Shown here: positions 1,831-40,728 of the stretch, piece by piece
Position numbering within the stretch: position 1 is the stretch's first letter
Layout of the letters: every line of letters starts with the position of its first letter
Virus record (IMG/VR): IMGVR_UViG_3300025138_000097
Coordinates: 1 to 40,728 of that record
DNA: 40,728 nucleotides
Origin: a virus
Strand: one strand, 5' to 3'
Made by a program: the position numbers and the translations under genes
The notes under the pieces: generated by a model
The model's input: the letters and a program-made list of their open reading frames with translations, nothing else
Told to the model about the DNA's origin: nothing
Databases searched by the model: none

Positions 1831-3335
1831 TATTTAGCCTCCAGTTTTTCTACTTTCGCAGTAAGCTCCTTGATTGCCTCTACTAATAAACCAATTGTTT
1901 GGTCGTACTGTAAGACTTTATATTCTTTACCATCATCGTGCTTTAAAGGGAGTTCTTTTTCTGATACTGCGGAAGGTAATACTTTTTCAACATCCTGTGC
2001 AATTAGACCTGCTGATTTTTTATCATCTGCGTTATAAGTAAATGTAACACCATTTAACTGATTAACTTTAGATAATGCATCTGTAATTGGCTCTATGTCG
2101 TGCTTCAATCTTTCATCTGAGATAGTAGTTGAGAAAGCAATTACGTCAGCATCAACGTGTAATTCAGCAGAAGCATTAAGCCTCATATATTCAGAACCAT
2201 TTATATGCCATTCGTGAGTAGCAGTACCAATTGCCGCAAAGTCATTAGTATCTCTACCAATGTGCGTAACACCTTTTCTCAAGTCACCTAGTGATTCTGA
2301 TAAGTGAGCATTGTCAATTGAGTCATCTGTGTAATGCTCAGAGTTAATTGCATTGTCTACTAACTTTGCACCATTTATAGCATCGTCAGCTATATGTGCA
2401 TTGTCAATACTTCCGTCAGCGTAATGCTCTGAGTTAATTGCATTATCTGCAATTTTAGTACCATCTACAATGTCTGCTGCTAAGTGTTCTCTGTCAATAC
2501 TTCCATCAGCATAATGTTCACTGCCTATAACTCCATCAGCAATCATATCTCCGTGATTAATTGCATCATTACCAATCTTAGCTGCGGTTACTGCGTCATC
2601 AGCAATGTGTGCTGTGTCAATAGAGCCATCAACATACTGAGAAGAGTCTACAGAATTTGCTGCTAACTTAGCTAAAGTAACTTGTGAGTTTCCAATATGT
2701 GCTGTTTCTATTGAACCATCTACATATTGATTTGTACTAACACTATTTGTACTCATCTTAGCTAGAGTAATTTGTGCATCAGCAATGTGGGCTGTGTCAA
2801 TAGAAGCATCAGTATAGTGTTCACTATTAATTGCATTGTCTGCAATCTTAGCTCCTGTGATTGCATCTGCTGCTATCGAAGCTGTACCTACTGTAGTCCA
2901 ATCTAAGACACCTGAACCATTTGTAAGTAACACCTCATTAGCATTACCATCATCATTAGGAAATACTAGCGTGTAACTAGCATTAGCTGAATGTGGTGGA
3001 CTTTGTAATTTTATTCCATGTGAATTTTGTGAACAGTTTAATTGAATGTAACCATCTGCCGAGCTACCATCACCTTTTGCTATTGGTTGGTCTAATTGTG
3101 TTTGTACTGCTGATGTAACACCATCTAATCTATTTAATTCAGCAGCATCTGTTGTTATAGCTGTGCCACTAATCTTCCATTGACCAGCAGTAAGGTTAGG
3201 CTTAATAGCAGTTGTGCCATCAAGTAAGTTGTCTACATTATCTAAATTTGTATTTAATTTTGTACCCCAAGTATCCGCAGAAGCACCAACCTCTGGCTTT
3301 ACAAGGGAGAAAGTAGTAGTTGTTGTATCTGCCAT
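1830..3335 (-). CDS. Tail fibre with C-terminal S74 intramolecular chaperone (copy 1, complete)
   Basis: This 501-residue protein has three parts. The N-terminus (residues 1-110) holds [15 protein letters not shown] and is probably the virion-binding part. From about 150 to 350 there are degenerate repeats of the type [18 protein letters not shown], suggesting a trimeric beta-helical shaft. The last ~100 residues are a peptidase S74 / endosialidase-type chaperone with [40 protein letters not shown] and a terminal coiled coil. In this family the chaperone trimerises the fibre and then cuts itself off between Ser and Asp, here Ser406-Asp407. The fibre acts in host recognition. The gene ends in TAATG with the adhesin start. 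A second, right-truncated copy lies at 39,562-40,728. Confidence 0.88.
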
Positions 3336-17983: not shown

Positions 17984-18589
17984 TTATCTAAATCCTTGTG
18001 TTAGTCTTGGTTGCATTTCCATTTCATAGTTACCATCTCTTAAACCTTGTAAAAAGACTTCTACCATTTCTGGTTGTGTTTGTTCTAGAAAATTAACATA
18101 ATTTTGTTCGTCAGCAGTTAAAGCTGTTATGCCTTCACGAGCCCTAAATCCATTCATAGCTTCTGGGGTTAACGTATCACCAGTAAAGCCATATGTTTCA
18201 GTATTACCATCTACACCTATACCAAGATTCCTTACACCAGAACCCATTGTCTCTTGTAAAAATTTTTGTTCTGCTGCAGTATTTAATCCTCTAGCTCCTA
18301 CCCCTGCCATTACTGCTGGGTCTATCATCATCATTGGGTCTGTACCACTAGCATTGTTTGTGTTTACCATTGAACGCATATTAACAGGACTTAAATCATC
18401 TGTAGTTGTTGTAGGATTAGTAGTTGTGTTACCACCCATAATGTTAGTCAAGAAATTATCTCCAGCAACTTTTCCAGCACGTTTCTCTGCACTAGTACCG
18501 AAACCCATAATTCCAGCATCACCAATAAAATTTCTAGCTCCACCTTGCAACATATCTAAAATTTGCTCAAATGTAAGTTCATCTTTCAT
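17984..18589 (-). CDS. Virion-region protein with GARGL motif
   Basis: This 201-residue protein has an N-terminal helical part (TFEQILDMLQGGARNFIGD), an Asn/Thr-rich linker, then GVGARGLNTAAEQKFLQETMG near 115-135. The last motif resembles GIGARGLDTVEERKFLQ in the 477-residue protein at 10,647-12,080. The C-terminus has TPEAMNGFRAREGITALTADEQNYVNFLEQ. It sits between the 1,058-residue virion protein and the adaptor. The shared motif argues that both proteins belong to one structural or delivery complex. I do not recognise a named family. Confidence 0.65.
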   Translation of the reverse strand: MKDELTFEQILDMLQGGARNFIGDAGIMGFGTSAEKRAGKVAGDNFLTNIMGGNTTTNPTTTTDDLSPVNMRSMVNTNNASGTDPMMMIDPAVMAGVGARGLNTAAEQKFLQETMGSGVRNLGIGVDGNTETYGFTGDTLTPEAMNGFRAREGITALTADEQNYVNFLEQTQPEMVEVFLQGLRDGNYEMEMQPRLTQGFR

Positions 18590-23499: not shown

Positions 23500-23690
23500 T
23501 AAAATCCTCTCCTGTCATAAGTGTGCCAATACTCATAATCTTCTAGTAAATTACCAAACAATTCTTCTGCTTTATTTCTGACAGCATCCCATCCTTTTCT
23601 ATTAGCAAGATACATAATATCTCTAGCGTTATCCTGCGAACAATTTAAACTTTGCAACTCTTCCATACATTGTTCACAACTCTTAGACAT
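23499..23690 (-). CDS. Small Cys-containing protein
   Basis: This 63-residue protein contains CEQCMEELQSLNC near the N-terminus and an Asp/Tyr/Trp-rich C-terminus (LLEDYEYWHTYDRRGF). The C-x2-C plus a nearby Cys could bind one metal or form disulphides, but the set is too small for a named zinc finger. The terminase small subunit starts at its last base, so the two are co-translated. Function unknown. Confidence 0.65.
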   Translation of the reverse strand: MSKSCEQCMEELQSLNCSQDNARDIMYLANRKGWDAVRNKAEELFGNLLEDYEYWHTYDRRGF

Positions 23691-25159: not shown

Positions 25160-25322
25160 TAGTTTTTTTCTCTTTGACTCTATCCATAACCATACTAAAT
25201 TTAAGTTGGTCACATAAATTGATAATCTGGTCTTCAATATCTTCTTTTAATTTTCTGTCATCTATTTTAGAAAGCAGACCATATAATTTATAAATTGTTT
25301 CTACCGCATCATCATTCGACAT
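25149..25322 (-). CDS. Small helical protein between HTH and VRR-NUC genes
   Basis: A 57-residue, charged helical protein (MSNDDAVETIYKLYGLLSKI...DRKLKEDIEDQIINLC) fills the space between the HTH gene and the nuclease. Its start overlaps the end of the HTH gene by 11 bases, and its stop overlaps the start of the VRR-NUC gene, so the three are co-translated. Continuous overlap is the main evidence that it is real. Function unknown. Confidence 0.6.
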   Translation of the reverse strand: MSNDDAVETIYKLYGLLSKIDDRKLKEDIEDQIINLCDQLKFSMVMDRVKEKKTNEK

Positions 25323-25515
25323 TACGTTGCAGATTTTCCTCTGCTCCTAAATAATTTGCTAGACCATAGATTGCCCAATGCAGTGTTGGTTTGTCTCCTT
25401 TAATACGATGTGTAAGTCCACTCAATGAACACCCTAAAAAATTAGCACATTCTCCCTGTGTTATTCCTAATCTTTTAATTTCAGCAGGAATAGAATTGTA
25501 ATATATTGTTTTCAT
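25312..25515 (-). CDS. Small Cro/CI-type HTH transcription regulator
   Basis: This 67-residue protein is a minimal helix-turn-helix unit. ITQGECANFLGCSLSGLTHRIKG (about residues 18-40) is the HTH, and the rest resembles Cro-sized XRE proteins (AIYGLANYLGAEE). It sits at the divergence point of the two main transcription directions. Its own promoter carries a perfect ATATC-N6-GATAT palindrome (25,545-25,560) overlapping the -10 box. The same palindrome is found at four plus-strand promoters. It is therefore the best candidate for the factor that binds these sites and represses itself. No clear Shine-Dalgarno precedes its ATG, suggesting low translation. Confidence 0.78.
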   Translation of the reverse strand: MKTIYYNSIPAEIKRLGITQGECANFLGCSLSGLTHRIKGDKPTLHWAIYGLANYLGAEENLQRNVE

Positions 25516-25541: not shown

Positions 25542-25571
25542 ATTATATCAATTAAGATATTTTGTGTAGGT
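25542..25571 (-). promoter_or_regulatory. Promoter of the HTH gene with ATATC-N6-GATAT operator (site A)
   Basis: On the minus strand the sequence reads ATATC-ttaatt-GATATAAT. TATAAT (25,547-25,542) is the -10 box and shares its first bases with the right half of the palindrome (25,545-25,560). The transcript would start about 20 bases before the ATG of the HTH gene. The -35 region is weak, as would suit an autoregulated promoter. Confidence 0.7.
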
Positions 25572-26051
25572 TTGTTTAACTTTTTTTTCTAGATTTAATT
25601 TCGCTTTCAGCGACTTACCTATGTAAAGCTAAGGGATAAATCCCTTTTTAAGAGCAAGTAACTTTTGTTTTTTTTCTTATCGGGTAATTCCTGAGCTGAG
25701 GCTTTCGGGGCAAAGAAATCCCTAACCACTAAGAAAGCAGTTAGAGATTGTCATCGGTATAAGTCCTTCGCAGTATTTATCCGTATGCCTGAAACCATTA
25801 CAACTAATCAGGTTAGAGTCATCGCTACCTTGTAATAGGTACTCAGCCTTCTGCACTCTACGCTAGATTTTTTTATCGCTTCAAGGTGGTTACCAGTATA
25901 AAGCTTCTTATCTAACATCAATCAACAGCTTCTTGGAATACATAGCTAAATCTCTTTTTTTACTGTAGTGAGTGAAGCATGTATAGGCTAGACATATCTA
26001 CAGTCGTATCCTGATAGTTGCTAAGATGTCATAAGAGGGTATAATACGTCT
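25561..26051. other. Long gene-free region with a chain of hairpins
   Basis: No plausible gene is present in either strand. Successive hairpins can be drawn. AAGGGAT/ATCCCTT at 25,631-25,646 is followed by T5, terminator-like on plus. AATCCCTAAC/GTTAGAGATT (25,717-25,726 with 25,740-25,749) has one mismatch. CGGTATAA/TTATCCG lies at 25,755-25,783 with a bulge, CCTGA/TCAGG at 25,788-25,812, and TACCT/AGGTA at 25,826-25,841. CTAGATTT followed by CGCTT occurs near both 25,590 and 25,864, and AGCTTCTT occurs twice near 25,912 and 25,927. It may encode a structured RNA or hold the replication origin. Confidence 0.45.
26018..26045 (+). promoter_or_regulatory. Promoter of the candidate small RNA
   Basis: TTGCTA (26,018-26,023), a 16-base spacer and a perfect TATAAT (26,040-26,045) form a good sigma-70-like promoter. 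It lacks the ATATC-N6-GATAT palindrome of the neighbouring promoters, so it is probably not under the same control. The expected start is near 26,052. Confidence 0.6.
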
Positions 26052-26120
26052 CAAACAGCAGGGGCAACTGCCAGTTTAGAAGAACCTCAAGAGAACTTAA
26101 TCAAGCTCTTGGGGTTTTTT
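26052..26120 (+). ncRNA. Candidate ~70-nt small RNA
   Basis: Between the promoter at 26,018-26,045 and a strong terminator lies a ~70-base segment without an ATG. Its first half contains the short inverted repeat AACTG-c-CAGTT and a GGC-AACT-GCC hairpin. Its second half is the terminator stem. A short RNA bounded by its own promoter and terminator, independent of the next gene (which has its own promoter at 26,201), is the simplest reading. The alternative is a short attenuated leader. Target unknown. Confidence 0.5.
26083..26120 (+). terminator. Strong rho-independent terminator
   Basis: AACCTCAAGAG (26,083-26,093) pairs with CTCTTGGGGTT (26,106-26,116), eleven pairs with one T-G, followed by T's to 26,120. 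An inner CTT-AATC-AAG extends the stem after a two-base bulge. It isolates the plus-strand early promoter from upstream transcription. Confidence 0.85.
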
Positions 26121-26200
26121 GTTTTCTAAACCAAGAACTGCAAATCATACTCTCTTTTAAGAACTACTCAAAACTTTATTTAAAAAATAATTGTATTTAA

Positions 26201-26282
26201 TTACACAAACTGTATCGTATCTGATATAATGACTTTGTCATCGAGACATTTGGTGACACTTTTAACTTAACTAGGAGATACA
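26201..26282 (+). promoter_or_regulatory. Early promoter with operator site B and 5' hairpin
   Basis: TTACAC (26,201-26,206), an 18-base spacer and TATAAT (26,225-26,230) form the promoter. The palindrome GTATC-N6-GATAT (26,212-26,227; one half-site change) overlaps the -10. Six bases after the -10, TGTCAT (26,236-26,241) pairs with GTGACA (26,253-26,258), so the mRNA should begin with a hairpin. The leader ends in TTTTAACTTAACTAGGAGAT before the ATG at 26,283. Confidence 0.78.
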
Positions 26283-26444
26283 ATGAAACCAACAATGAAG
26301 AAAATTAGAAAGCATTTTGAACATCCTGAACATGCAAATAGGTTAGAAAATAGTTTTAAAGCTAGAGCTAACAAAAGAATAGAAATTGCTAAACGTAACG
26401 CTGAAGCAAAACTTGATGCAATTGAAACAGGATTTTTTAAATAA
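26283..26444 (+). CDS. Small basic helical early protein (53 aa)
   Basis: This is the first gene of the plus-strand early region, encoding 53 residues (MKPTMKKIRKHFEHPEHANR..., NKRIEIAKRNAEAKLDAIE). It is almost entirely helical and highly basic. An AGGAG lies seven bases before the ATG, in the conserved leader used by the other early promoters. Small basic early proteins often bind host enzymes or DNA, but there is no motif to name this one. Promoter, ribosome site and length together support it as real. Confidence 0.72.
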   Translation: MKPTMKKIRKHFEHPEHANRLENSFKARANKRIEIAKRNAEAKLDAIETGFFK

Positions 26445-26452
26445 TTTTAACC

Positions 26453-26470
26453 GGGGAGGGCAACCTCCCC
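26453..26470 (+). promoter_or_regulatory. Intercistronic hairpin with GCAA tetraloop
   Basis: GGGGAGG-GCAA-CCTCCCC is a perfect seven-pair stem closed by a GNRA loop. There is no T-run after it, so it is more likely an mRNA processing or 3'-protection element between the first two early genes than a terminator. Confidence 0.6.
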
Positions 26471-26488
26471 ACAAACTAGGAGATACAA

Positions 26489-26785
26489 ATGACTAAAGCA
26501 GTAAATATATTAAGTGATGCACTTAACAAAATGGCAACTGATGATGAGGACAAAATGTTTCAACCATCAGCAAATAAGTTTGAAGATTTTAAAGTAGGAA
26601 ATAAAGTTAAGTGTTATCATTTTTGGATGATGGAAGATTCTTATCTTGGTGAAGTTACATTACTCGAGAAAAGGTCAGCAGAAAAAGATGCAGACATATT
26701 AGGTTTTACTACTCAATACTGGACTGTTGAATTCGATGATGGTCATGTTAGTGACAAGTGGTTTAAATCTGATACACCTAAATAA
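26489..26785 (+). CDS. Early hypothetical protein (98 aa)
   Basis: This 98-residue acidic protein has an N-terminal helix (MTKAVNILSDALNKMATDDED) and a beta-rich C-terminal part (FKVGNKVKCYHFWMMEDSYLGEVTLLEK, QYWTVEFDDGHVSDKWF). The second half looks like a small SH3- or Tudor-like barrel: V-G-x-x-V near the start, then W-x-V-E-F-D-D-G. This fits a protein- or nucleic-acid-binding module, but that is inference. It has the same AGGAGATACA ribosome site as the gene before it and is followed by a terminator. Confidence 0.7.
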   Translation: MTKAVNILSDALNKMATDDEDKMFQPSANKFEDFKVGNKVKCYHFWMMEDSYLGEVTLLEKRSAEKDADILGFTTQYWTVEFDDGHVSDKWFKSDTPK

Positions 26786-26791
26786 TACAAT

Positions 26792-26823
26792 GGGGAAGTC
26801 TATGAAAATAAACTTCCCCTTTT
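26792..26823 (+). terminator. Rho-independent terminator
   Basis: GGGGAAGT (26,792-26,799) pairs with ACTTCCCC (26,812-26,819) and is followed by TTTTA. It ends the first early unit. The next promoter begins inside its tail, so its -35 region overlaps the terminator stem. Confidence 0.8.
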
Positions 26824-26885
26824 ATATCGTCTATGATATAATCACATTGTGATTGATTGAATCACATAACAAAATAGGAGCTACA
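26813..26885 (+). promoter_or_regulatory. Early promoter with perfect operator site C and 5' hairpin
   Basis: TATAAT (26,837-26,842) overlaps a perfect ATATC-gtctat-GATAT palindrome (26,824-26,839). The -35 region is poor and lies in the preceding terminator, which may make this promoter activator- or extended-10-dependent (TATGATATAAT). Six bases after the -10, TGTGATT (26,848-26,854) pairs with AATCACA (26,860-26,866). The pairing is kept although the arm sequence differs from the other copies. Confidence 0.75.
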
Positions 26886-27047
26886 ATGATTAAAGATATT
26901 AAACACCTAAAGGCTGAAGACAAGCCAAGAACATATTGCCTTAACTGCAAATCTGAGACAGGTTATGGCAGAGGTACTGAACCAACTAGACATGACATCC
27001 ATTGGTGTTCATCTCCATGTTGGAAAGAATACTTAGAGGAGAAATAA
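26886..27047 (+). CDS. Small zinc-ribbon-like protein (53 aa)
   Basis: From the ATG at 26,886 (TAGGAG six bases upstream) the product is 53 residues: MIKDIKHLKAEDKPRTYCLNC, then HWCSSPCWKEYLEEK. Two Cys pairs (C-x2-C and C-x3-C) about 25 residues apart, with a nearby His, suit a single zinc site. An earlier in-frame ATG at 26,853 lies inside the leader hairpin and is unlikely to be used. The role may be DNA, RNA or protein binding. No family is recognised. Confidence 0.7.
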   Translation: MIKDIKHLKAEDKPRTYCLNCKSETGYGRGTEPTRHDIHWCSSPCWKEYLEEK

Positions 27048-27048
27048 T

Positions 27049-27366
27049 ATGGAAACTTTAGAAGATTTTAAACGTGGAGATGCTTGGCAGTCACAATGGG
27101 AAGCTAACTTTGATAATGCACGTGATGAGTGCATGTCTGAGGCTGACAATATTTTGATGGAAGTTGAACACATAGTTCACGACTTAGACCAAAGACTTGA
27201 TGTACAAAATACTCGTGTCTTGGCTAAAGCCATTGACCAATTAGAAGAGCTTATTAATTACAGGTATGTTTATCCATATAACAATGAGCCATACGATTAT
27301 ATTTTTAAGGAACAGATTGTTCAGATTGTAAAAGACCGGCTATCTTATGATTTGGAGGTTAAATAA
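27049..27366 (+). CDS. Early hypothetical helical protein (105 aa)
   Basis: This 105-residue acidic, helical protein (METLEDFKRGDAWQSQW..., EADNILMEVEHIVHDLDQRL, DQLEELINYRYVYP) starts one base after the zinc-ribbon-like gene, with GAGGAG upstream. The next small gene begins at its last base. No signal peptide, metal motif or known domain is visible. Overlap with neighbours and normal ribosome sites support it. Confidence 0.68.
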   Translation: METLEDFKRGDAWQSQWEANFDNARDECMSEADNILMEVEHIVHDLDQRLDVQNTRVLAKAIDQLEELINYRYVYPYNNEPYDYIFKEQIVQIVKDRLSYDLEVK

Positions 27367-27467
27367 TGAACACATCAGATTACTACTTCGATGAGATTAA
27401 CTCTGAAGAAAATTTACAGGAATTAGATAACAATGAACCACAAATTGAGGAGAATGAAAATGAGTAA
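27366..27467 (+). CDS. Very small acidic protein (33 aa)
   Basis: ATG (27,366) overlaps the stop of the previous gene (TAATG), and the frame gives 33 residues, MNTSDYYFDEINSEENLQEL followed by an Asn/Glu-rich tail. The next gene starts inside its end. Such short acidic peptides can mimic DNA or inhibit host proteins, but nothing in the sequence shows that here. It is supported only by coupling and gap-filling. Confidence 0.45.
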   Translation: MNTSDYYFDEINSEENLQELDNNEPQIEENENE

Positions 27468-27696
27468 CCAACAAAATAGAGTCTTAGCATATGTTAGGAC
27501 TAACGGAAGTATAACATCACTTGAAGCCATAGAAAATTATGGCATAACTAGACTTGCTTCAACTATTCACACAATGAAAACAAAAGGTCATGTCTTTGAG
27601 CATGAACATGAAGTTAAAGTTTCTAATCGGTTTGGAGAAGATTGCAGAGTCACAAGGTATCATTACAAAGGTATGGAAAATAAGGAGAATTCATAA
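27460..27696 (+). CDS. Winged-helix DNA-binding protein (HTH_39 type)
   Basis: From the ATG at 27,460 (GAGGAG eight bases upstream) the protein has 78 residues: QNRVLAYVRTNGSITSLEAI, ENYGITRLASTIHTMKTKGH and a basic beta-hairpin wing (VKVSNRFGEDCRVTRYHY). This is the pattern of the small HTH_39 phage winged-helix family. It precedes the annealing-protein gene directly, the next ATG lying at its stop. It could be a transcription or replication regulator. An upstream ATG at 27,433 lacks a ribosome site. Confidence 0.78.
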   Translation: MSNQQNRVLAYVRTNGSITSLEAIENYGITRLASTIHTMKTKGHVFEHEHEVKVSNRFGEDCRVTRYHYKGMENKENS

Positions 27697-28367
27697 TGGA
27701 ACAAGTATTAGATAAATATGGTTTGCCATTACTTGAAGCAATGTCCATACAAGGCAAAGAATATGTATTGGTTAAGACTAGGCTTCAGTATTTTCGTAAA
27801 CATTACGAGAACGCTGACATTAAAACTGAGATACTGCATTTTGATGGTGACAGTATTATGGTCAAAGTTATTATCTTTGTAGATGGCAAGAGTGTATCGG
27901 AAGGTATTGCTCATGAAGAAAAAGGTAAAAACTCTATTAATGCAACATCTTTTTGCGAAATAGCACAAACTTCAGCATTGGGAAGAGCTCTTGGCATATT
28001 AGGAATAGGCATAACAACGTCAGTTGCGACATGGGATGAGGTTAATGGTGCTATCAAGCAGCAAGAAGCTAACGCTAGAGAAAACGAATTGGCTCAATAT
28101 AAAGCTGAAAGTCTATCTGCAAAATTAATTATGTCTATTGAAGCAGACGATGAGGAAGGTGTTACTGAAGTTGAAAAAGATTATAGAGGTGACACACCAT
28201 TAGCAACAAGAGTTAAACTTACGTTAAGCCCGGAACATTTGGAGTGGATGGCTGAACGTAAAGAACGCAAGTCTTTAGAAAGTAAAGAAAAGGCACAAAC
28301 TAAACATGAAACTAATGTTCAAGCAGCAAAAGAGTTTGCAGAAAAACAAAAAAACTCAGAGGTATAG
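27696..28367 (+). CDS. Putative single-strand annealing / recombination protein
   Basis: This 223-residue protein has an N-terminal half with VKTRLQYFRKHYENADIKTEIL, a strand MVKVIIFVDGKSVSEGIAHEE and the signature FCEIAQTSALGRALGILGIG. Such a 'E-x-A-x-T-S-A-x-G-R-A-L' motif recurs in phage proteins placed next to ssb and compared with ERF/Rad52-like annealing proteins. The C-terminal 100 residues are a charged helical tail. With SSB directly downstream and NinB-like, DUF1364 and VRR-NUC genes elsewhere, a recombination-mediated replication or repair role is likely. The family assignment is inferred, and a lipid- or nucleotide-binding alternative cannot be excluded. Confidence 0.5.
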   Translation: MEQVLDKYGLPLLEAMSIQGKEYVLVKTRLQYFRKHYENADIKTEILHFDGDSIMVKVIIFVDGKSVSEGIAHEEKGKNSINATSFCEIAQTSALGRALGILGIGITTSVATWDEVNGAIKQQEANARENELAQYKAESLSAKLIMSIEADDEEGVTEVEKDYRGDTPLATRVKLTLSPEHLEWMAERKERKSLESKEKAQTKHETNVQAAKEFAEKQKNSEV

Positions 28368-28447
28368 TAGCACCTACGCTGAAGTCGGGGAATCCTATCC
28401 TCGTTAGTTAAAGACAAATGCTACTGGATTGATTGCCCTAAGCAATC
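28366..28447 (+). promoter_or_regulatory. Structured RNA leader upstream of ssb
   Basis: The 105 bases before the ssb gene fold as follows. AGTAGCA (28,366-28,372) closes with TGCTACT (28,419-28,425). Inside is CGGGGA/TCCTCG (28,386-28,391 with 28,398-28,403, one G-U). After it, GATTGC-CCTAA-GCAATC (28,431-28,447) forms a perfect hairpin. The ribosome site AAGGAG follows. No coding frame explains it. Autogenous control by SSB or RNA processing are possible. No known riboswitch class is recognised. Confidence 0.5.
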
Positions 28448-28472
28448 ACCTAATTTAATTTAAGGAGACGTT

Positions 28473-28922
28473 ATGAACAAAGTAATATTACAAGGCACGT
28501 TATCAGAAGAACCACAATTTAAACCTACTAAAAATGGCGGTGTTGTAGGTTTATTGAGAATTGAGACAATTGAACATTACAAAGACTACCAGACACAAGA
28601 AGCAAAGCAAAGCTCACAGTGGCATCGTACAGTATTGTTTGGTAAGCTTGCTGAGACTGCACAAGGTATGAATTTACGAAAAGGTAATAATCTTATAGTT
28701 GATGGGCAATTAATAACTCGAAGTTATGTAGACAAAACTGGACAAAAAAAATGGACAACAGAAGTCACTCTTTCCGGTTTTAAAGGCTCAATACAATTAA
28801 TTGATAGTGCAGGTGAATTTGAAGGTGACATGGCAATAGGTGCAGTTTCTGAACCTGTAGCATCACAAAGAATAACACCAGTAGCAACTGACGAGGAGTT
28901 TGAAGATGAAATACCATTTTAA
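28473..28922 (+). CDS. ssb: Single-stranded DNA-binding protein
   Basis: This 149-residue OB-fold protein begins MNKVILQGTLSEEPQFKPTKNG and contains SQWHRTVLFGKLAETA, LRKGNNLIVDGQLITRSYVDKTG and WTTEVTLSGFKGSIQLI, the standard SSB core. A linker and an acidic tip ending EDEIPF follow, as in bacterial SSBs, where the tip recruits partner enzymes. It coats single strands in replication and recombination. It has its own structured leader and AAGGAG. The lipoprotein gene begins inside its 3' end. Confidence 0.93.
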   Translation: MNKVILQGTLSEEPQFKPTKNGGVVGLLRIETIEHYKDYQTQEAKQSSQWHRTVLFGKLAETAQGMNLRKGNNLIVDGQLITRSYVDKTGQKKWTTEVTLSGFKGSIQLIDSAGEFEGDMAIGAVSEPVASQRITPVATDEEFEDEIPF

Positions 28923-29094
28923 AATATTAGCATTGGCACTATTAGTTACAGGATGTAGTGCTCTGCAAGACAAACGTGATTCATTGTTAATACCACCTGA
29001 TGTAATTGGTAATCAACAATTGATTTGCTCAAGCGAAGACATGAAGTTATGTTCAGGTTTTCTTACTCAGAAAGATATAATTAAGGAGAAATAA
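28906..29094 (+). CDS. Small lipoprotein overlapping ssb
   Basis: From the ATG at 28,906 (GAGGAG seven bases upstream, inside the acidic tail codons of ssb) the product is 62 residues. MKYHFKILALALLVTGC is a lipoprotein signal with the lipobox VTGC and acylated Cys17. The mature part is about 46 residues with two further Cys (LICSSEDMKLCSGF). It should be anchored in a membrane facing the periplasm. Early expression does not suit a lysis spanin. Small early lipoproteins of other phages block receptors or DNA entry, so superinfection exclusion is a reasonable but unproven idea. Confidence 0.72.
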   Translation: MKYHFKILALALLVTGCSALQDKRDSLLIPPDVIGNQQLICSSEDMKLCSGFLTQKDIIKEK

Positions 29095-29095
29095 T

Positions 29096-29281
29096 ATGTT
29101 GACATGGAAGCCCAAAAATAAGTTTAAGCCTTATATCTCGGTATCACTAAACAAGAGTTATATTGAAGAAACGTGGTCAAAAGAAGCATTTGAAAAAGTA
29201 ATGCGTAAACATGGTGTTGAATTAGACAGAAGAAAATCTATGACTAGATTGGTTGAGGAAAATTATGACTTACTTGCTTAA
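29096..29281 (+). CDS. Early hypothetical protein (61 aa)
   Basis: This 61-residue basic protein (MLTWKPKNKFKPYISVSLNK, SKEAFEKVMRKHGVELDRRK, MTRLVEENYDLLA) has AAGGAG upstream. A beta strand followed by two helices could be a ribbon-helix-helix-like DNA-binding unit: the strand PYISVSL, then helix, then SMTRLVEEN. That is only a fold guess. Its end overlaps the 37-residue membrane gene. Confidence 0.6.
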   Translation: MLTWKPKNKFKPYISVSLNKSYIEETWSKEAFEKVMRKHGVELDRRKSMTRLVEENYDLLA

Positions 29282-29378
29282 TGCTACAACTCCTCTTCTT
29301 GCATTAATTGGTACAGGACTGGTTTCAGCCGGTCTTGTACTACTCTTAATGACACTAGGTATGCCTGATGAAAAGTAA
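29265..29378 (+). CDS. Single-span membrane micro-protein (37 aa)
   Basis: ATG at 29,265 with GAGG upstream encodes MTYLLNATTPLLALIGTGLV followed by SAGLVLLLMTLGMPDEK, which is one transmembrane helix and a short charged tail. It overlaps the genes before and after it, so it is read as part of the early operon. Hydrophobic composition throughout supports a real membrane peptide. Function unknown. Confidence 0.5.
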   Translation: MTYLLNATTPLLALIGTGLVSAGLVLLLMTLGMPDEK

Positions 29379-29562
29379 ATACTCCGATGAAGACCTTATG
29401 GCTTTTGCTGATAAAGAAACTTCAGGTGAGAAGGCTATGGATATATTAGGTGACCTACTTAAAGGTGATAAAGAGTCAAAAATTTTAGCAAAACGTATTG
29501 CTGTTTATGTAGAAACTCGTAATGATTTAATAAATTTATTATTGCAAGGAGAAAACAAATGA
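29368..29562 (+). CDS. Anti-sigma-factor-like small protein
   Basis: This 64-residue protein reads SDEDLMAFADKETSGEKAMD, then ILGDLLKGDKESKILAKRIAVYVETR. The pattern D-E-x-L-M-A-[FY]-A-D-x-E...A...L..D.....A matches the N-terminal domain of bacterial anti-sigma factors (zinc-free FecR/ChrR-like start). The following catalytic or membrane parts are absent, leaving only the sigma-binding unit. If so, it could redirect host RNA polymerase. The similarity is by eye and the protein is short. It overlaps both neighbouring micro-protein genes. Confidence 0.5.
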   Translation: MKSKYSDEDLMAFADKETSGEKAMDILGDLLKGDKESKILAKRIAVYVETRNDLINLLLQGENK

Positions 29563-29675
29563 GAAAGCTATGGTCATGGTTAATATTTTTTTATAGCATT
29601 GGTTTTATAATTGAAGTGTGTGCTGTTGTGTACATTGCTATGTGGTTTCATCAGTACGAACAATATATACTCTAA
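29559..29675 (+). CDS. Membrane micro-protein (38 aa)
   Basis: ATG at 29,559 follows AAGGAG and overlaps the preceding stop (ATGA). It encodes MRKLWSWLIFFYSIGFIIEV followed by CAVVYIAMWFHQYEQYIL, one long aromatic transmembrane helix. Its TAA overlaps the ATG of the next gene. Together with the 37-residue gene it forms a pair of early membrane peptides separated by the anti-sigma-like gene. Confidence 0.5.
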   Translation: MRKLWSWLIFFYSIGFIIEVCAVVYIAMWFHQYEQYIL

Positions 29676-29932
29676 TGGGTAAATTAAGAACCATTGTTTA
29701 TATACTAGACGATGGTACAAAGATTAATTGTAGGCAATTAGCTAATATACTTGGTGTAACTGAATCGGCTGCACGTAATAGATTAAACAGAAGTTCTGAC
29801 CCTAAAAAAGTTTACAAACCTTATGAATTAAAAGCAGGTAGTAAACGTCCTTGGGGTAGTAAAAAGAAGTTAGACGAGCAAAAAAAAGTTAAAGATTCTG
29901 AAATGTGGAAACTAGTTATGAAAAATATTTAA
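29675..29932 (+). CDS. Small HTH DNA-binding protein (85 aa)
   Basis: From the ATG at 29,675, which overlaps the previous stop as TAATG, the product has 85 residues. GTKINCRQLANILGVTESAARNRL is a helix-turn-helix, followed by a basic Lys-rich tail (KRPWGSKKKLDEQKKVK). A longer frame from 29,618 would start inside the membrane gene without a ribosome site. It may regulate early or late promoters, or replication. It ends just before the promoter of the DUF932 gene. Confidence 0.7.
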   Translation: MGKLRTIVYILDDGTKINCRQLANILGVTESAARNRLNRSSDPKKVYKPYELKAGSKRPWGSKKKLDEQKKVKDSEMWKLVMKNI

Positions 29933-29950
29933 CTTTATTTAATTAAATAC

Positions 29951-30035
29951 TTTACATTTTTATATCATCTATGGTATTATTTCTCTGTCAACGATATTTT
30001 ATTGACAAACTTTTAATTTAATAGGAGATACAAAG
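29951..30035 (+). promoter_or_regulatory. Early promoter with operator site D and 5' hairpin
   Basis: TTTACA (29,951-29,956), an 18-base spacer and TATTAT (29,975-29,980) form the promoter. ATATC-N6-GGTAT (29,962-29,977) is the palindrome with one change. Six bases after the -10, TGTCAA (29,986-29,991) pairs with TTGACA (30,002-30,007). The leader ends AATAGGAGATACAAAG before the ATG. Confidence 0.75.
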
Positions 30036-30866
30036 ATGGAAATAGTAAATGAATATAACAGAGTAGAAGAGCAAAGCTTGTTTACAAGACCTGCAGTTTA
30101 TTTAGATGACACAAACAATAAGGTTGTTGAAACACACAAATGTATTGTAAACGATGAAGGCTCACCAATAGCAGTAGTAGGTAAAAATTATAACCTAGTG
30201 CAAAACGCTGACATCATGCCACAGTTTCACGATGTAATACTTGCATCTAACTTAGACAAAACTGGCATGACTAAGAAAATCCAACAATCACACCAAGGTG
30301 CTAAGACAATTGTTACTTACACTTTTCCAGCACATGAGATGGAGATTGCTCCGGGTGATTCAGTACAGCTTAGAATTATGGTTCTTAACTCTTACGATGG
30401 TTCTTGGAAGTTTATGTCTATGGTAGGAGCTGTAAGAATGGCTTGTATGAATGGTCAAGTAATTGCTGATGCTTTTTCTGAGTATAGTGCTAAACACACA
30501 AGAAGTTTAGACGTTGACATGGCAGTAGCTAAACTTGAAACAGCTCTTGAGGTTTATACAAAAAATGTTGAGTTGTGGAAAAAGTTTCCTAAAGCTAATA
30601 TATCTAATGCACAAGCTACTGCAATTTTTCAAAAGATAGCTGGTAAGAGTGATAGGCTTGAATTGTTACTTGAAGAAACTTTTATCAAATATGTTGATGA
30701 AATGGGCAAAAATGTTTGGGCATTGTTTAACACATTGACTGATTGGTCTAGCCACGCTAAATTTAAGAATGAGGCTAACAAAGTAGCAACTGTATACAAT
30801 CGTGAAGCTAAAGTAAGAAAAGTGTTACCTTGGCTTAAAGAAATGGCTACCCAGAAAGCAGCTTAA
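30036..30866 (+). CDS. DUF932 family phage/plasmid-like protein
   Basis: This 276-residue protein carries the DUF932 pattern. A strand-rich N-terminus has IVNDEGSPIAVVGKNYNLVQNADIM (the 'V-x-x-x-Y-x-x-x-x-N' motif). IVTYTFPAHEMEIAPGDSVQLRIMVLNSYDGS follows, then ACMNGQVIADAFSEYSAKHT, then a long helical C-terminus. These proteins are common on phages and plasmids. Their role is uncertain, with links to replication or host takeover. It has its own promoter with operator and a terminator after it, so it is a single-gene unit likely expressed at high level. Confidence 0.82.
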   Translation: MEIVNEYNRVEEQSLFTRPAVYLDDTNNKVVETHKCIVNDEGSPIAVVGKNYNLVQNADIMPQFHDVILASNLDKTGMTKKIQQSHQGAKTIVTYTFPAHEMEIAPGDSVQLRIMVLNSYDGSWKFMSMVGAVRMACMNGQVIADAFSEYSAKHTRSLDVDMAVAKLETALEVYTKNVELWKKFPKANISNAQATAIFQKIAGKSDRLELLLEETFIKYVDEMGKNVWALFNTLTDWSSHAKFKNEANKVATVYNREAKVRKVLPWLKEMATQKAA

Positions 30867-30872
30867 ATAAAT

Positions 30873-30901
30873 AAGGGAGGTTAATAGCCTCCTTTTTTTT
30901 T
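30873..30901 (+). terminator. Rho-independent terminator after the DUF932 gene
   Basis: AAGGGAGG (30,873-30,880) pairs with CCTCCTTT (30,888-30,895), eight pairs with one G-T, followed by a long T-run. The next operator-promoter follows at once. Confidence 0.82.
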
Positions 30902-30909
30902 CTATTTAA

Positions 30910-30991
30910 TTACACAAAACATATCAACTATGATATAATGACCTTGTCATTGAGATTTTGATGACAATTTTAACTTAACTAGGAGATTCAC
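30910..30991 (+). promoter_or_regulatory. Early promoter with perfect operator site E and 5' hairpin
   Basis: TTACAC (30,910-30,915), an 18-base spacer and TATAAT (30,934-30,939) form the promoter. A perfect ATATC-aactat-GATAT (30,921-30,936) overlaps the -10. TTGTCAT (30,944-30,950) pairs with ATGACAA (30,961-30,967). The region shares TATTTAATTACACAAA with the promoter at 26,201, so the two are recent relatives. Confidence 0.78.
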
Positions 30992-35411: not shown

Positions 35412-35925
35412 CTCTTTTCTCCTGTGCAGATTTTTCATGTTCACGAGTTTCTACTGGTATTTTGTCTGTATGTACTTCCCAAGCTCTTGCAGCTTCATCA
35501 CCTATTAGACCTAAGTATGGACAACTTGTTCCAGCCATCCGCATTGCTTCAAATATAGCTGGGTCTTGACATAAAAGACTCACAGAAGCCACCTTCATAC
35601 CGGCTGAGTAAAGCATCCTTGCCTTCTTTAACAGCAAACAATTTGCCTCTGTGTATGTAGCTCCAAGGCTCAAGGATAAGATTTGAGTGCCTAAAGCACC
35701 ACTAGATGAGATAGTACATAGGTCTGAGTTATTTCCGCCTACATTTGGAGATATGGCACTTGGCGGTGCAGACTTGACTGTTGTTGTCATGTTGCCATCA
35801 GTTGTAACTGTAGACGTAGTGTTTTGTGTAATTGTGCTTTCATCAGCCATAGCTGCAAAAGACAGTATAAGAAACGTAGCTACTATGCCAAAAGCAATTG
35901 CGTTGTTTATTTTTTTATTTATCAT
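35359..35925 (-). CDS. Secreted protein, complete paralogue of the truncated gene at 1-469
   Basis: This 188-residue protein has an N-terminal signal peptide (NAIAFGIVATFLILSFAAMA). A Thr-rich stretch, then SAPPSAISP, SDLCT, ANCLLLKKARMLYSAGMKVA and SLLCQD follow, all in the order seen in the left-edge gene. The C-terminus adds a charged helix and a final hydrophobic segment (VMGAVASAILLF) that could insert in a membrane. It is the first of five overlapping secreted-protein genes, and its start overlaps the end of the fourth oxygenase. Function unknown. A terminal membrane segment plus signal peptide suggests an envelope-active protein. Confidence 0.75.
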   Translation of the reverse strand: MINKKINNAIAFGIVATFLILSFAAMADESTITQNTTSTVTTDGNMTTTVKSAPPSAISPNVGGNNSDLCTISSSGALGTQILSLSLGATYTEANCLLLKKARMLYSAGMKVASVSLLCQDPAIFEAMRMAGTSCPYLGLIGDEAARAWEVHTDKIPVETREHEKSAQEKRDDALKVMGAVASAILLF

Positions 35926-36508
35926 TGTTTTCTATACTAAATTCAAAAGGCAGTCCTAATACTTCTCTACCATCATACTCTTCAATTTCTTTATCTGCTA
36001 ATACATAATGCAAAAACACCTGCACACATCTTTTTCCTTCAAATGGTATTCGCCAGTGTTCTAAATCACAACCTCTGTAAACACACATATCACCTTTTTT
36101 AAGTAACAAAGGTTTACCTTCCATGTAAATTTCCCATTCATCACCACCTAAAAATAGTGTAGTAGAAATTTCACATTCAGGTCTATCTTTATGTGGAAGT
36201 AATTCATCACCACATTTATAAACTCTGCAATATGAATAAGATGGTTTTATTGGTTTACCTACAATTTTTTCTACTTCAGAAAGCATATCAACTAATAATG
36301 TTTCCATAGCTATATCAGCATAGTGTACATAAGTGTTTGGAATTTGTTTATCTTCCCAATGTCCAACAACCAAAGAAGGATATTTTAAATATTTATCTCT
36401 GTACATAATTGCTACAGCTTGTCTTTTTAATATTAAATAATTGTATAAAAAGTCTGCAAGATTACTTTGTATAGCCTTACGTTTAATTTGATAGCCATTC
36501 TTAATCAT
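35915..36508 (-). CDS. 2-oxoglutarate/Fe(II) oxygenase-like protein 4
   Basis: This 197-residue protein has a jelly-roll core. SYCRVYKCGDELLPHKDRPE places the metal ligands His106 and Asp108 (H-K-D). ISTTLFLGGDEWEIYMEGKP forms the middle strands. CDLEHWR gives the distal His151, and Arg160 (EGKRC) is where 2-oxoglutarate is bound. The complete H-x-D...H...R set suggests an active dioxygenase. Substrate unknown. The gene overlaps oxygenase 3 upstream by four bases and the secreted-protein gene downstream. Confidence 0.75.
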   Translation of the reverse strand: MIKNGYQIKRKAIQSNLADFLYNYLILKRQAVAIMYRDKYLKYPSLVVGHWEDKQIPNTYVHYADIAMETLLVDMLSEVEKIVGKPIKPSYSYCRVYKCGDELLPHKDRPECEISTTLFLGGDEWEIYMEGKPLLLKKGDMCVYRGCDLEHWRIPFEGKRCVQVFLHYVLADKEIEEYDGREVLGLPFEFSIENNDK

Positions 36509-37014
36509 GTGTAAAACCCTAAAACAATAACTATTCTTTCTTCTGTATCAGTGTGTGTTACATCAGTGTGCTTTACATTTCCAAATACAGCCATTTTATT
36601 TGCAACGCTTGAAATTTTTGTTCCATCCTCAAGTTGCGTATAACCATTATTAGTATTCATATAATATGTAGCCACATTAAGATGAATATCTTTTTTGTTC
36701 CAATCATGATGCCATCCACCTATTTTTTGTTCGCCTGTGTTGTAATATAGATTTATCTTTGCTCTTAAAAAATGTTGAATATTAAATTCTTTTTCAGCTT
36801 TTTTTAAAAGTGGCATTAAACTATCTAATTTAAAACTTTTTAAAGGGTGTTTATCAGAAAATGTATCAATAAAAATATGTGACATTTGATGTTCGTCATA
36901 TCCAGCTTTACGAACTTTTAAAGCTCTATACCAAGGAAAATCTTGTGATAACACTTCATCATAAAGATTATTAAATTCTTTTTCAGATAAAAAATTTTTA
37001 ATTTCTTGTACCAT
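36505..37014 (-). CDS. 2-oxoglutarate/Fe(II) oxygenase-like protein 3
   Basis: The ATG at 37,014 overlaps the preceding stop (TAATG), which I prefer to the ATG at 37,029. That start gives 169 residues. The core is LRAKINLYYNTGEQKIGGWH, then HDW (H-x-D within GGWHHDW), NVATYYMNTNNGYTQLEDGT, SVANKMAVFGN and VTHTDTEERIVI with the distal His and an Arg. The 'Y-x-N-T-N-N-G-Y-T' strand is characteristic of oxygenases found in cyanophages and other marine phages. All ligands are present. Substrate unknown. Confidence 0.8.
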   Translation of the reverse strand: MVQEIKNFLSEKEFNNLYDEVLSQDFPWYRALKVRKAGYDEHQMSHIFIDTFSDKHPLKSFKLDSLMPLLKKAEKEFNIQHFLRAKINLYYNTGEQKIGGWHHDWNKKDIHLNVATYYMNTNNGYTQLEDGTKISSVANKMAVFGNVKHTDVTHTDTEERIVIVLGFYT

Positions 37015-37601
37015 TAAAATCCATACCACCCAGTTATAATTTTTTTTTCACTATCATGCGAAACTTGGCTTACATGAGGATGTGTAAAATAAGAAGGCCA
37101 TATAAGCGTTAAACCTTTTATGCTTGGAGTAATAAGGTTTTGGTCAGGAAATTCAGTACCAGCATTTTCTAAAGTATCTAAATACGTCATAAAAACTAAA
37201 TGTCTTTTTCCTGACTCTGGACAGCCTCTATTTTCTATATGCGTTAACTTAAAACCTCCACCCTTTTCATAATGTTGATAATTAAAATATTCTTCAATTT
37301 CAAATTTATCTACTTCAGCAGCAAATGGAAACACTTTTATATAATTTTCTAAACAGTCTTGTAAGCAATCTAGGTATTCACCCCAAGGCTTAACTACACT
37401 ATAAGCATTAATATAAATATCAGTTGAATCTTTTATATCATTCACTGAAGTTTCTTCAGAGCTGTAAATCTTTGCTTTGCCTTTAACTTTGTATTCTTGA
37501 AAATCAGGATTATCCCAAAACTTAATTACTTTATTAATTGTTTTCATTGGCATAAACCATCCGCCAATGTGTGTGTCAGTTGGCAGCATATATCGTTTCA
37601 T
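37014..37601 (-). CDS. 2-oxoglutarate/Fe(II) oxygenase-like protein 2 (HxE variant)
   Basis: This 195-residue protein has YFNYQHYEKGGGFKLTHIEN, in which the first metal pair is His121-Ile-Glu123 (H-x-E instead of H-x-D). RHLVFMTYLDTLENAGTEFP follows, then LIWPSYFTHPHVSQVS with the distal His and KKIITGWYGF at the end. This is the marine-phage prolyl-hydroxylase-like type that often uses H-x-E and ends in '[KR]-x-I-x-T-G-W'. A Lys stands where many relatives have Arg. The gene overlaps oxygenases 1 and 3 by a few bases. Confidence 0.82.
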   Translation of the reverse strand: MKRYMLPTDTHIGGWFMPMKTINKVIKFWDNPDFQEYKVKGKAKIYSSEETSVNDIKDSTDIYINAYSVVKPWGEYLDCLQDCLENYIKVFPFAAEVDKFEIEEYFNYQHYEKGGGFKLTHIENRGCPESGKRHLVFMTYLDTLENAGTEFPDQNLITPSIKGLTLIWPSYFTHPHVSQVSHDSEKKIITGWYGF

Positions 37602-38173
37602 TTAAACTTAGCTCCAACTAACCAACCAATTAAAGACATTCTTTTGCCTTTTGTAACAGGTGTAACTCTGTGTGTTAAAAAAGATGGAAAAACAATTACT
37701 GAACCTTTTTGTTTCATGTCTATTTTTTCTTGTTTAGTAAATTCTGAATTTTGAATTTGAAAATCACCACCAACATAATCACTTGGTTCAGACAATTGTA
37801 TTACTACAGAAAGTTTTCTATGATATAACTCATTAGATGTCCATTGAATATCTTGATGCCAATCGTATTTGCCTTTGTATTTTGCATCGTATATAGAAAA
37901 TTGTAATGCTTGTAATTGATTTATATCAAATCCAAAATTAGCATTGTTTGAAGTAGTACCTAATCTATACACCAGATTAAAAAAATCAGAGTCTTTATAT
38001 TCGTCAAAGAAAAATACCTTTGACCTTCTATGGTCTGTATCTAATTCAAACTTATTATGATTAGCTAAATCTACTGTACCAAAGTTAAATTGTTTGTTTA
38101 AACCTCGTTCAACAATTCCATCTACAGTATCTTTATCGACTTGAGATGTGTAATAAATCCAATCAAATTTCAT
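37598..38173 (-). CDS. 2-oxoglutarate/Fe(II) oxygenase-like protein 1 (PKHD/P4H type)
   Basis: This 191-residue protein has the clearest prolyl-4-hydroxylase pattern of the four. YKGKYDWHQDIQW holds His106-x-Asp108. LSVVIQLSEPSDYVGGDFQI forms the central strands. GSVIVFPSFLTHRVTPVTKG carries the distal His168, and KRMSLIGW carries Arg178. It is the first gene of the cassette, 28 bases after the short fibre-associated gene, with AAGGA before the ATG. Known relatives hydroxylate proteins or small molecules. The substrate here cannot be read from the sequence. Confidence 0.85.
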   Translation of the reverse strand: MKFDWIYYTSQVDKDTVDGIVERGLNKQFNFGTVDLANHNKFELDTDHRRSKVFFFDEYKDSDFFNLVYRLGTTSNNANFGFDINQLQALQFSIYDAKYKGKYDWHQDIQWTSNELYHRKLSVVIQLSEPSDYVGGDFQIQNSEFTKQEKIDMKQKGSVIVFPSFLTHRVTPVTKGKRMSLIGWLVGAKFK

Positions 38174-38614: not shown

Positions 38615-39562
38615 CTAATTTTGAAATTTATATCTAAGAATAACAACACCTGAACCACCAGCATAACCAGAATAATTGGCACTTGGTGTGGCAATGCCAC
38701 CGCCACCGCCACCGCCAGTATTTGCAGAACCACCACTGCCACCAACTGATGGTGCATAAGGAGCACCACCAACTGCTCCAGTACCTCCACCGCCTGAGCC
38801 ACCAGAACCGGGGTCAGCGTAATTATTATTGTGAGAGTTTCCACCACCACCACCACCAGCTCTTGTAACTGAATCTACACTCCAAGCTGCTCCAGCTCCA
38901 CCATTACCAGTATTGGTATATGTTCCATCATTTCGACCATTTTGGCCAGCAGCTCCAGCTCCCCCTCCTCCGCCAGACCGAGAATTTGCTCCACCATTTC
39001 CACCATTATGTCCTTGACCTGAAATGCCTGAACCGCCTGAAGTCACGCTGCCATTAAACCAACCACCTCCAGCCCCAGAACCGCCACTTCCTCCAGCCAT
39101 ACCTCCACGAGTAGAAGTAATACCCATAGCAGAACTATTTGAACCAGCACCACCAACTGTTACAGTATAATTTTGTGCAGAAGATTCAACTGTTGAGGCT
39201 CTCATGCCTCCAGCACCTCCTCCTCCTCCAGACATATTTGAACCATGGCTTCCTATGCCACCTCCAGCAATTACTAAATAATCTACTGTAGCATCTGCTG
39301 CTCCTCCTGCTGCGGTATTGACTGCAAAAGTTCCTGAGCTGTTAAAAGTATGAATTTTGTAATTACCAGACGTTGTAATTGTGCCACCAGTAGCACTAAT
39401 AGGAACATAATTACTTGTGCCTTGAAAATCAGCGTGGACTTGTATTTCTCCACTACTTGGAGCATTACCTTTACTGTAATATTCACTTAAAGCGTGTGGA
39501 GCTGAACCACCATACTCTCCAGCAATGTCACCTATACTTAATTGTCCTGTACCTAATGCCAT
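38615..39562 (-). CDS. Glycine-rich tail adhesin (copy 2)
   Basis: This 315-residue paralogue of the 853-1830 gene has the N-terminus MALGTGQLSIGDIAGEYGGS with LSEYYSKGNAPSSGEIQVHA and the C-terminus GSGVVILRYKFQN. Both align well with copy 1. The middle, from about residue 100, is a different set of Gly runs and linkers. Conserved ends and an exchanged Gly-rich centre fit a receptor-binding tip under selection. TAATG couples it to the fibre gene. Confidence 0.75.
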   Translation of the reverse strand: MALGTGQLSIGDIAGEYGGSAPHALSEYYSKGNAPSSGEIQVHADFQGTSNYVPISATGGTITTSGNYKIHTFNSSGTFAVNTAAGGAADATVDYLVIAGGGIGSHGSNMSGGGGGAGGMRASTVESSAQNYTVTVGGAGSNSSAMGITSTRGGMAGGSGGSGAGGGWFNGSVTSGGSGISGQGHNGGNGGANSRSGGGGGAGAAGQNGRNDGTYTNTGNGGAGAAWSVDSVTRAGGGGGGNSHNNNYADPGSGGSGGGGTGAVGGAPYAPSVGGSGGSANTGGGGGGGIATPSANYSGYAGGSGVVILRYKFQN

Positions 39563-40728
39563 TATTTCTTCTCCAGTTTTTCTACTTTAGCAGTTAGCTC
39601 CTTAATTGCTTCTACTAGTAAACCAATTGTTTGGTCATACTGAACAGTTTTGTAAGCTATGCCATCATCGTGTTGTAAAGGTAATTCTGTTTCTGTCACT
39701 GCTGAAGGCATTACTTTTTCAACGTCTTGTGCAATAAGTCCAGCAGACTTCTTGTCATCTTTGTTGTAAGTAAAAGTTACACCATTTAACTGACCAACCT
39801 TAGATAAAGCATCTGTAATTGGCTCTATGTCGTGCTTTAATCTTTCATCTGAAATAGTAGTTGAGAAAGCAATAACATCATTTTCAACGTGTAATACTCC
39901 AGCGTTAGTAAGCCTCATATCTTCAGCACCATCTAAATGAAAACCAATAATAGTAGTATCTAAATTAATATAGTCGTTAGTATCTCTACCAATCTGAGTA
40001 ACACCTTTTCTCAAGTCACCTAGTGATTCTGATAAATGAGCATTGTCAATTGAGTCATCTGTGTAATGCTCAGAGTTAATTGCATTATCTTGTATGTTAG
40101 TACCATCTATACAATCATTAGCTAAATGTGCGTGGTCAATACTTGCATCTACATACTGACTAGAATCTACAGAATTCGCTGCCATCTTGGCTAGAGTAAT
40201 ATTTCCGTTTGTAATATGGTCTGTTTGTATCGAGCCATTCACATATTGGTCTGTATTAACACTATTTGTACTCATCTTAGCTAGAGTAATTTGTGCATCT
40301 TGTATGTGTGCGGTTCTTACTGCATCATCAATAATGGCATCTGTGTTTACAGAGTTTGGTGCTAAATGTTCTGCATCAATACTGTCTGCAACAATGTGTT
40401 CACTATTTATGACATCATCTCCAATGTTATCTCCATCCACACAATCTGCGGATAAGTGAACATGGTCTATACTACCATCTACATAAGAATCAGAATCTAT
40501 TGAATTTGCTGCCATCTTAGCTGCTGTAATTGCATCTGCTGCTATAGAAGCTGTACCTACTGTAGTCCAATCTAAAACACCTGAACCATTTGTAAGTAAC
40601 ACCTCATTAGCATTACCATCATCATTAGGAAATACTAGCGTGTAACTAGCATTAGCTGAATGTGGTGGACTTTGTAATTTTATTCCATGAGAATTTTGTG
40701 AACAGTTTAATTGTATGTAACCATCTGC
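39562..40728 (-). CDS. Tail fibre with S74 chaperone (copy 2, N-terminus cut by window edge)
   Basis: The frame is open to the right edge. The visible 388 residues start at [20 protein letters not shown], which corresponds to about residue 93 of copy 1, so roughly 92 N-terminal residues lie outside. The shaft repeats differ in number and sequence (SVNTDQYVNGSIQTDHI and similar). The end from [20 protein letters not shown] onward and the chaperone ([13 protein letters not shown], cleavage expected at Ser-Asp 95 residues from the end) are nearly identical to copy 1. The last ~180 bases match 2,879-3,059 with three substitutions that I count by eye. Confidence 0.88.
   Translation of the reverse strand, partial: ADGYIQLNCSQNSHGIKLQSPPHSANASYTLVFPNDDGNANEVLLTNGSGVLDWTTVGTASIAADAITAAKMAANSIDSDSYVDGSIDHVHLSADCVDGDNIGDDVINSEHIVADSIDAEHLAPNSVNTDAIIDDAVRTAHIQDAQITLAKMSTNSVNTDQYVNGSIQTDHITNGNITLAKMAANSVDSSQYVDASIDHAHLANDCIDGTNIQDNAINSEHYTDDSIDNAHLSESLGDLRKGVTQIGRDTNDYINLDTTIIGFHLDGAEDMRLTNAGVLHVENDVIAFSTTISDERLKHDIEPITDALSKVGQLNGVTFTYNKDDKKSAGLIAQDVEKVMPSAVTETELPLQHDDGIAYKTVQYDQTIGLLVEAIKELTAKVEKLEKK

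Follow-up and report, generated by a model that had tools for sequence, protein, structure and literature searches.

The virus record IMGVR_UViG_3300025138_000097 of IMG/VR was analyzed over positions 1 to 40,728 (the whole stretch, here called the window), with the focus on a small leftward helix-turn-helix (HTH) gene encoding the protein P0001 and on a palindrome, ATATC-N6-GATAT, found at its promoter and at four rightward promoters (Table 1). The original prediction, made from the sequence alone, had listed five copies of this palindrome, three perfect and two with one change, each sharing its right half with the -10 box, and had read the arrangement as an autoregulated repressor. All five copies were found where it had placed them. 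Operators 1, 3 and 5 are perfect, operators 2 and 4 carry one change, and the overlap with the -10 box is the three bases TAT at every site. The right half, GATAT, continues into TATAAT at four sites and into TATTAT at operator 4. The minus-strand site precedes the HTH start codon (position 25515) by 30 bp, and small genes with the Shine-Dalgarno sequence AGGAG stand downstream of the four plus-strand sites. Judged by content (single-stranded DNA-binding protein [SSB] and recombination-type genes) and by position, the genes behind these four promoters would be early genes.

Table 1. Features of the palindrome-bearing region and the adjacent noncoding element
Feature	Position	Strand	Basis or associated element
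67-residue HTH protein P0001, proposed autorepressor, leads leftward operon	25312..25515	-	Open reading frame, fold, relatives
-10 box TATAAT, HTH promoter	25542..25547	-	Sequence
Operator 1, ATATCTTAATTGATAT, perfect, HTH promoter	25545..25560	-	Motif scan and sequence
Operator 2, GTATCGTATCTGATAT, first early promoter	26212..26227	+	-10 TATAAT, 26225-26230
Operator 3, ATATCGTCTATGATAT	26824..26839	+	-10 TATAAT, 26837-26842
Operator 4, ATATCATCTATGGTAT, upstream of DUF932 gene	29962..29977	+	-10 TATTAT, 29975-29980
Operator 5, ATATCAACTATGATAT, perfect	30921..30936	+	-10 TATAAT, 30934-30939
5' stem-loop, early transcript 1, first base is the predicted +1	26237..26257	+	Leader pairing
5' stem-loop, early transcript 2 (GTGAT...ATCAC)	26849..26865	+	Leader pairing
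5' stem-loop, early transcript 3 (GTCAA...TTGAC)	29987..30006	+	Leader pairing
5' stem-loop, early transcript 4 (GTCAT...ATGAC)	30946..30965	+	Leader pairing
Conserved structured noncoding element, probably a leftward RNA of ~540 nt, outside the regulon	25600..26137	-	Conservation, folding, wobble pairs
Predicted ~70-nt RNA, one hairpin and intrinsic terminator	26053..26122	+	Promoter box, 26040-26046

The three perfect matches in the window compare with 0.03 expected from dinucleotide shuffles, and none of 100 shuffles reached three. When up to one change was allowed there were six matches against 1.79 expected (1 of 100 shuffles reached six), and with an in-register TATAAT or TATTAT also required, six stood against a simulated 0.22 (maximum, 2). 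Two changes gave no enrichment (27 matches versus 25.9 expected), indicating that the signal consists of strong sites only. The sixth match, at 23617-23632 on the minus strand, was set aside as a chance occurrence; it lies inside a 63-residue open reading frame beside the terminase small-subunit gene and is degraded in relatives.

Relatives of P0001 were present in IMG/VR at 38 loci in one search and in at least 84 stretches in another, of which 80 were kept; none was found among isolate phages or in the GTDB species genomes, and the collections searched held no near-identical isolate phage. Most IMG/VR relatives have the palindrome at the HTH promoter, where its half-sites are unchanged but its spacer bases vary (TTAATT, TCAATT, TTTATT, TTATTT, TAAGAT and TATGGT), and in close relatives the operator lies 45 to 51 bp upstream of the matched HTH codons. 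Copies away from promoters were looked for in about 95 related loci (816 kb) by counting the distinct contexts of ATATC-Nk-GATAT, with k from 0 to 15 and at most one change. N6 was the sole spacer enriched in noncoding DNA, with 66 contexts at k = 6 versus 1 to 10 for every other k, while coding contexts were flat over k (the 21 at k = 6 equal background) and reversed and scrambled motifs remained at background. As far as sequence can tell, the noncoding peak at k = 6 marks a dyad under selection, its half-sites one helical turn (11 bp) apart. Palindromes without the gene were looked for in a blind IMG/VR scan with the early-promoter motif, which returned 27 contigs; the HTH gene was present in 19 of the 19 contigs belonging to the phage group. 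Eight of the 27 lacked it, but these are copies of one unrelated promoter, have no regulon either, and were not counted as counterexamples.

An AlphaFold2 model of P0001 gave a lambda-repressor-like helical fold (predicted local distance difference test score, 87.5; predicted template modeling score, 0.74). Its best PDB matches in Foldseek were a lambda-repressor-like protein (probability, 0.96), Aca1, HipB, C.Kpn2I, 434 Cro and P22 c2, and the Pfam HTH_3 profile matched 5 of 22 relatives (best E value, 0.0011).

Divergent relatives, with proteins about 47 to 65% identical to the query proteins used, were recovered by a scan with a conserved block of the noncoding element described below, and in these the recognition helix and the operator were found to change together. 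The helix SLSGLTHRI pairs with the left half-site NTATC. Where the helix is TRSTLNHNI (L133, L134 and L139), the HTH promoter has GTACG in place of ATATC, as does the first early promoter where readable; L110 likewise has GTACG at its HTH promoter and a GTACG site at its early promoter. Where the helix is (A/S)KSTMSHNI (L118, L123 and L138), GTTCG stands at both the HTH and the first early promoter. The flanking bases differ between the two promoters and identity is limited to the operator, so that plain copying of one promoter is unlikely to be the source of the matching half-sites. Among the sequence comparisons, this joint switch is the strongest evidence that the 67-residue protein reads the palindrome. 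In the same seven loci (L110, L118, L123, L133, L134, L138 and L139) the HTH start codon sits at the expected transcript start (TATAAT-N6-ATG), and the HTH message of that clade is therefore predicted to be leaderless.

Gene co-occurrence, the noncoding enrichment of N6 and the joint switch of helix and half-site all support the autoregulated repressor of the original prediction. Very probably, the 67-residue protein is a dimeric binder of ATATC-N6-GATAT with a lambda-repressor fold which shuts four early promoters and its own. The dimer would recognize half-sites one helical turn (11 bp) apart on an operator spanning about -25 to -10 of a sigma-70 promoter, and once bound would block RNA polymerase. 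In relatives, TTGACA or TTGACT lies 16 to 17 bp from TATAAT with the dyad between them (e.g., L013, L016, L019 and L122), so that occupancy should block polymerase there too. We infer repression rather than activation because the dyad overlaps the -10 box, and infer likewise dimer binding and the timing of control during infection. The five copies would bring about the shut-off of four rightward early promoters together with the repressor's own leftward promoter, acting as a negative-feedback timer that turns the early genes off as the 67-residue protein accumulates. The circuit is of a known type, a Cro/CI/Aca-type autorepressor, and involves no new mechanism.

Several observations weigh against this interpretation. 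The right half-site is partly set by the -10 box, leaving the left half as the independent evidence, and some HTH promoters have a degenerate left half (GTAGC in L028, ATAGC/GAGAT in L034, TCATC in L035, CTACT in L143 and TGTTC in L113). The first early promoters of L074, L076 and L101 are also degenerate (CTCTC or CACTC with TGTAT), and conservation is thus not universal. The joint switch rests on few independent events, about two. P0001 itself matches no Pfam family at an E value of 0.1, and its Foldseek E values are weak, at 0.2 or worse, as is usual at 67 residues. The coincidence of the right half with the -10 box would also be expected if the palindrome were selected by a host regulator or by RNA polymerase alone and the HTH gene were just one target. 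However, none of the known sigma-70 elements corresponds to the left half (-25 to -21), spacer length is constant at six bases, and the motif tracks the phage group and the HTH gene and changes with the protein, making this explanation extremely improbable.

The palindrome might instead be bound by another protein of the early operon, namely an 87-residue winged-helix protein (27433-27696, Pfam HTH_39) or a 104-residue HTH protein (29618-29932). Both are putative DNA-binding proteins from the regulated operon, and the 87-residue gene is widespread among relatives, but neither gene has a palindrome-bearing promoter of its own. Both proteins also diverge faster than the 67-residue protein while the operator is unchanged; the 67-residue protein is 97% identical in L006 and 74% identical in L049, versus 58% and 57%, and 51% and 52%, respectively, for two other HTH-type proteins of the early operon. 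Changes in the operator also accompany those in the recognition helix of the 67-residue protein, and we consider either of these binders very improbable. A different role for the HTH protein was also weighed, in which the dyad is a MerR-like activator site between the -35 and -10 boxes through which the protein turns the early genes on. The dyad does sit in the promoter spacer, and the -35 boxes of the window are poor, some being readable at a spacing of 18 to 19 bp. Against this, the TTGACA or TTGACT boxes of relatives form strong promoters needing no activator, and the predicted fold is lambda-repressor-like and not that of MerR. A MerR-type activator with its dyad in a 19-bp spacer was rejected on the 16- to 17-bp spacers of the relatives and the overlap of the dyad with the -10 box itself, and activation of this kind appears very improbable.

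Repression by the 67-residue protein was then compared with known systems. The predicted fold and the autoregulation through promoter overlap are shared with 434 Cro, P22 c2 and lambda CI, and the 434 operator, ACAA-N6-TTGT, is a dyad with a six-base spacer like that of the window. Unlike the 434, P22 and lambda systems, the window phage has no CI/Cro pair, no tandem operator triplets and no integrase, and carries single sites at five separate promoters. The description of the gene as Cro-sized holds for its size and by analogy of fold; a CI partner or lysogeny module was not found. The absence of a visible integrase, also claimed originally, was borne out, as neither an integrase nor a second, antagonistic repressor was found among the window proteins scanned, from a record that may be incomplete; IMG/VR virus records are often fragments. 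Sulfitobacter phage pCB2047-A (HQ332142), a distant relative whose large terminase is about 45% identical to that of the window phage, resembles it in having divergent small HTH genes and a dyad at the HTH promoters and the early promoter. Its operator is different, TGTCG-N7-CGACA, with four close copies at 18494, 18538, 19066 and 19100 (L107, 18494-19116); its two HTH proteins are only weakly similar to P0001; and it is temperate, with an integrase and an excisionase. By this analogy, the window system appears to be a familiar switch in a form with one repressor and no integrase. Aca proteins are small HTH proteins that repress a phage promoter through an inverted repeat within the core promoter (PMC9410906). 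Aca1 was among the best fold matches of P0001, whereas the window gene comes first in a leftward operon of its own and its product seems to act on four further promoters. An anti-CRISPR gene was not identified, although no search directed at anti-CRISPRs was made; the neighboring VRR_NUC, YbcO-like and NinB-like proteins are not known anti-CRISPR proteins. A literature search, with subscription papers outside its scope, gave no close precedent for such a regulon in non-temperate phages.

The early promoters were found to have a further feature, missed by the original prediction, in that the four early transcripts should begin exactly at the base of a stem-loop. The stem arm runs from the seventh base after the -10 box, the expected +1, and its partner bases lie 7 to 12 nt past the arm. 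The arm pairs at the early promoters are GTCAT/ATGAC, GTGAT/ATCAC, GTAAT/ATTAC, GTTAC/GTAAC, ATCAA/TTGAT and others, several with G-U pairs (GTCAT/ATGGC). Pairing at the exact offset was present in 54 of 64 distinct leaders, whereas 2,000 partner shuffles gave 18 on average and 29 at most. Of the ten nonpairing entries, two are HTH promoters read on the reverse strand and a third has a longer loop, and the true pairing fraction is therefore higher. Since the sequence varies while pairing is kept, the conserved entity would be an RNA structure rather than a second DNA operator. The HTH transcript has a leader of about 25 nt with neither a Shine-Dalgarno sequence nor a 5' stem. Blunt 5' ends are poor substrates of RppH and RNase E in Escherichia coli (PMC3997798), making protection of the early messages a reasonable inference; the blunt stem-loops would stabilize these messages, and not that of the repressor, against 5'-end-dependent decay. 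A different leader type, stem-less and with CAACAACAACATAAC, follows the operator-bearing early promoters at L012:563, L019:5596, L023:6340 and L026:1788, all on the minus strand.

Between operators 1 and 2 lies a noncoding element conserved in about 80 loci, with blocks that are 99% identical. A scan with its core block matched 67 IMG/VR stretches but none of the GTDB genomes. The element contains no open reading frame of 45 or more residues, and an Rfam search of the intergenic region gave no convincing match, only chance-level microRNA and small-RNA hits. On both strands the consensus folding energy was roughly double that of shuffled alignments (-119/-129 versus -53 to -65). A second run gave -116/-125 versus -58 to -67, and in 32 shared pairs both partners had changed. 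Wobble pairs in helices predicted on both strands favored the minus strand by 63:14 with the terminator excluded and by 114:71 in the second run. The element is thus probably transcribed as a leftward RNA of about 540 nt. In an automatic search for its promoter, L011, L012, L015, L018, L019, L023 and L026 all showed TTGACC-17-TATGAT or TATCAT in the same position; the best hits in other loci were weaker or elsewhere, and this inconsistent signal is at most suggestive. On the plus strand, a covarying hairpin and an intrinsic terminator come after an invariant GTATAAT box, an arrangement that predicts an RNA of about 70 nt antisense to the 5' region of the leftward RNA.

The layout recalls RNA II and RNA I of ColE1, in that a short RNA lies antisense to a long structured one near the latter's 5' end, and extrachromosomal mycobacteriophage prophages provide examples of RNA-based origins (PMC7157519). 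An RNA-controlled origin would use the ~540-nt RNA as a primer for host enzymes and the ~70-nt RNA as an antisense check, with the repressor balancing transcription across the origin. Among the window proteins scanned, no helicase, primase, polymerase or initiator was recognized, and SSB and recombination-type genes were present. The element has no sequence or Rfam relation to the ColE1 and mycobacteriophage origins and no parABS, and it resembles ColE1 only in layout. We consider such an origin unlikely and treat the ColE1-like layout as a lead, not a conclusion.

Elsewhere in the window no tRNA or tmRNA was found, and a whole-window Rfam search gave nothing at gathering level and two weak matches. 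One of these, to the cis-regulatory family freshwater-2 at 29486-29561 on the plus strand (31.2 bits versus a gathering threshold of 49.9), ends exactly in AAGGAGAAAACAAATG. Two paralogous pairs of glycine-rich and Peptidase_S74 tail-fiber genes lie at the two ends of the record (853-3335 and 38615-40602, minus strand). Genes for 2OG-Fe(II) oxygenases occur at 35915-38173 (minus strand), together with one whose product matches a PHROG with a ferrochelatase annotation. Judging by what their genes are related to, we guess that these phages are marine.

The collections searched contained neither a cultured nor a genome-sequenced relative of this phage family, yet its control circuit could be made out from the DNA sequence. 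With a single short protein, five sites and natural variants whose protein and site have changed together, the system is a small and testable example of how the specificity of a phage repressor changes. The noncoding element is a candidate for a new large phage RNA family. At the RNA level, the blunt 5' stems would supply a second layer, which appears to set the early genes apart from the repressor gene, and the system as a whole suggests that the integrase-less phages of this group still have a switch-like shut-off of their early genes.

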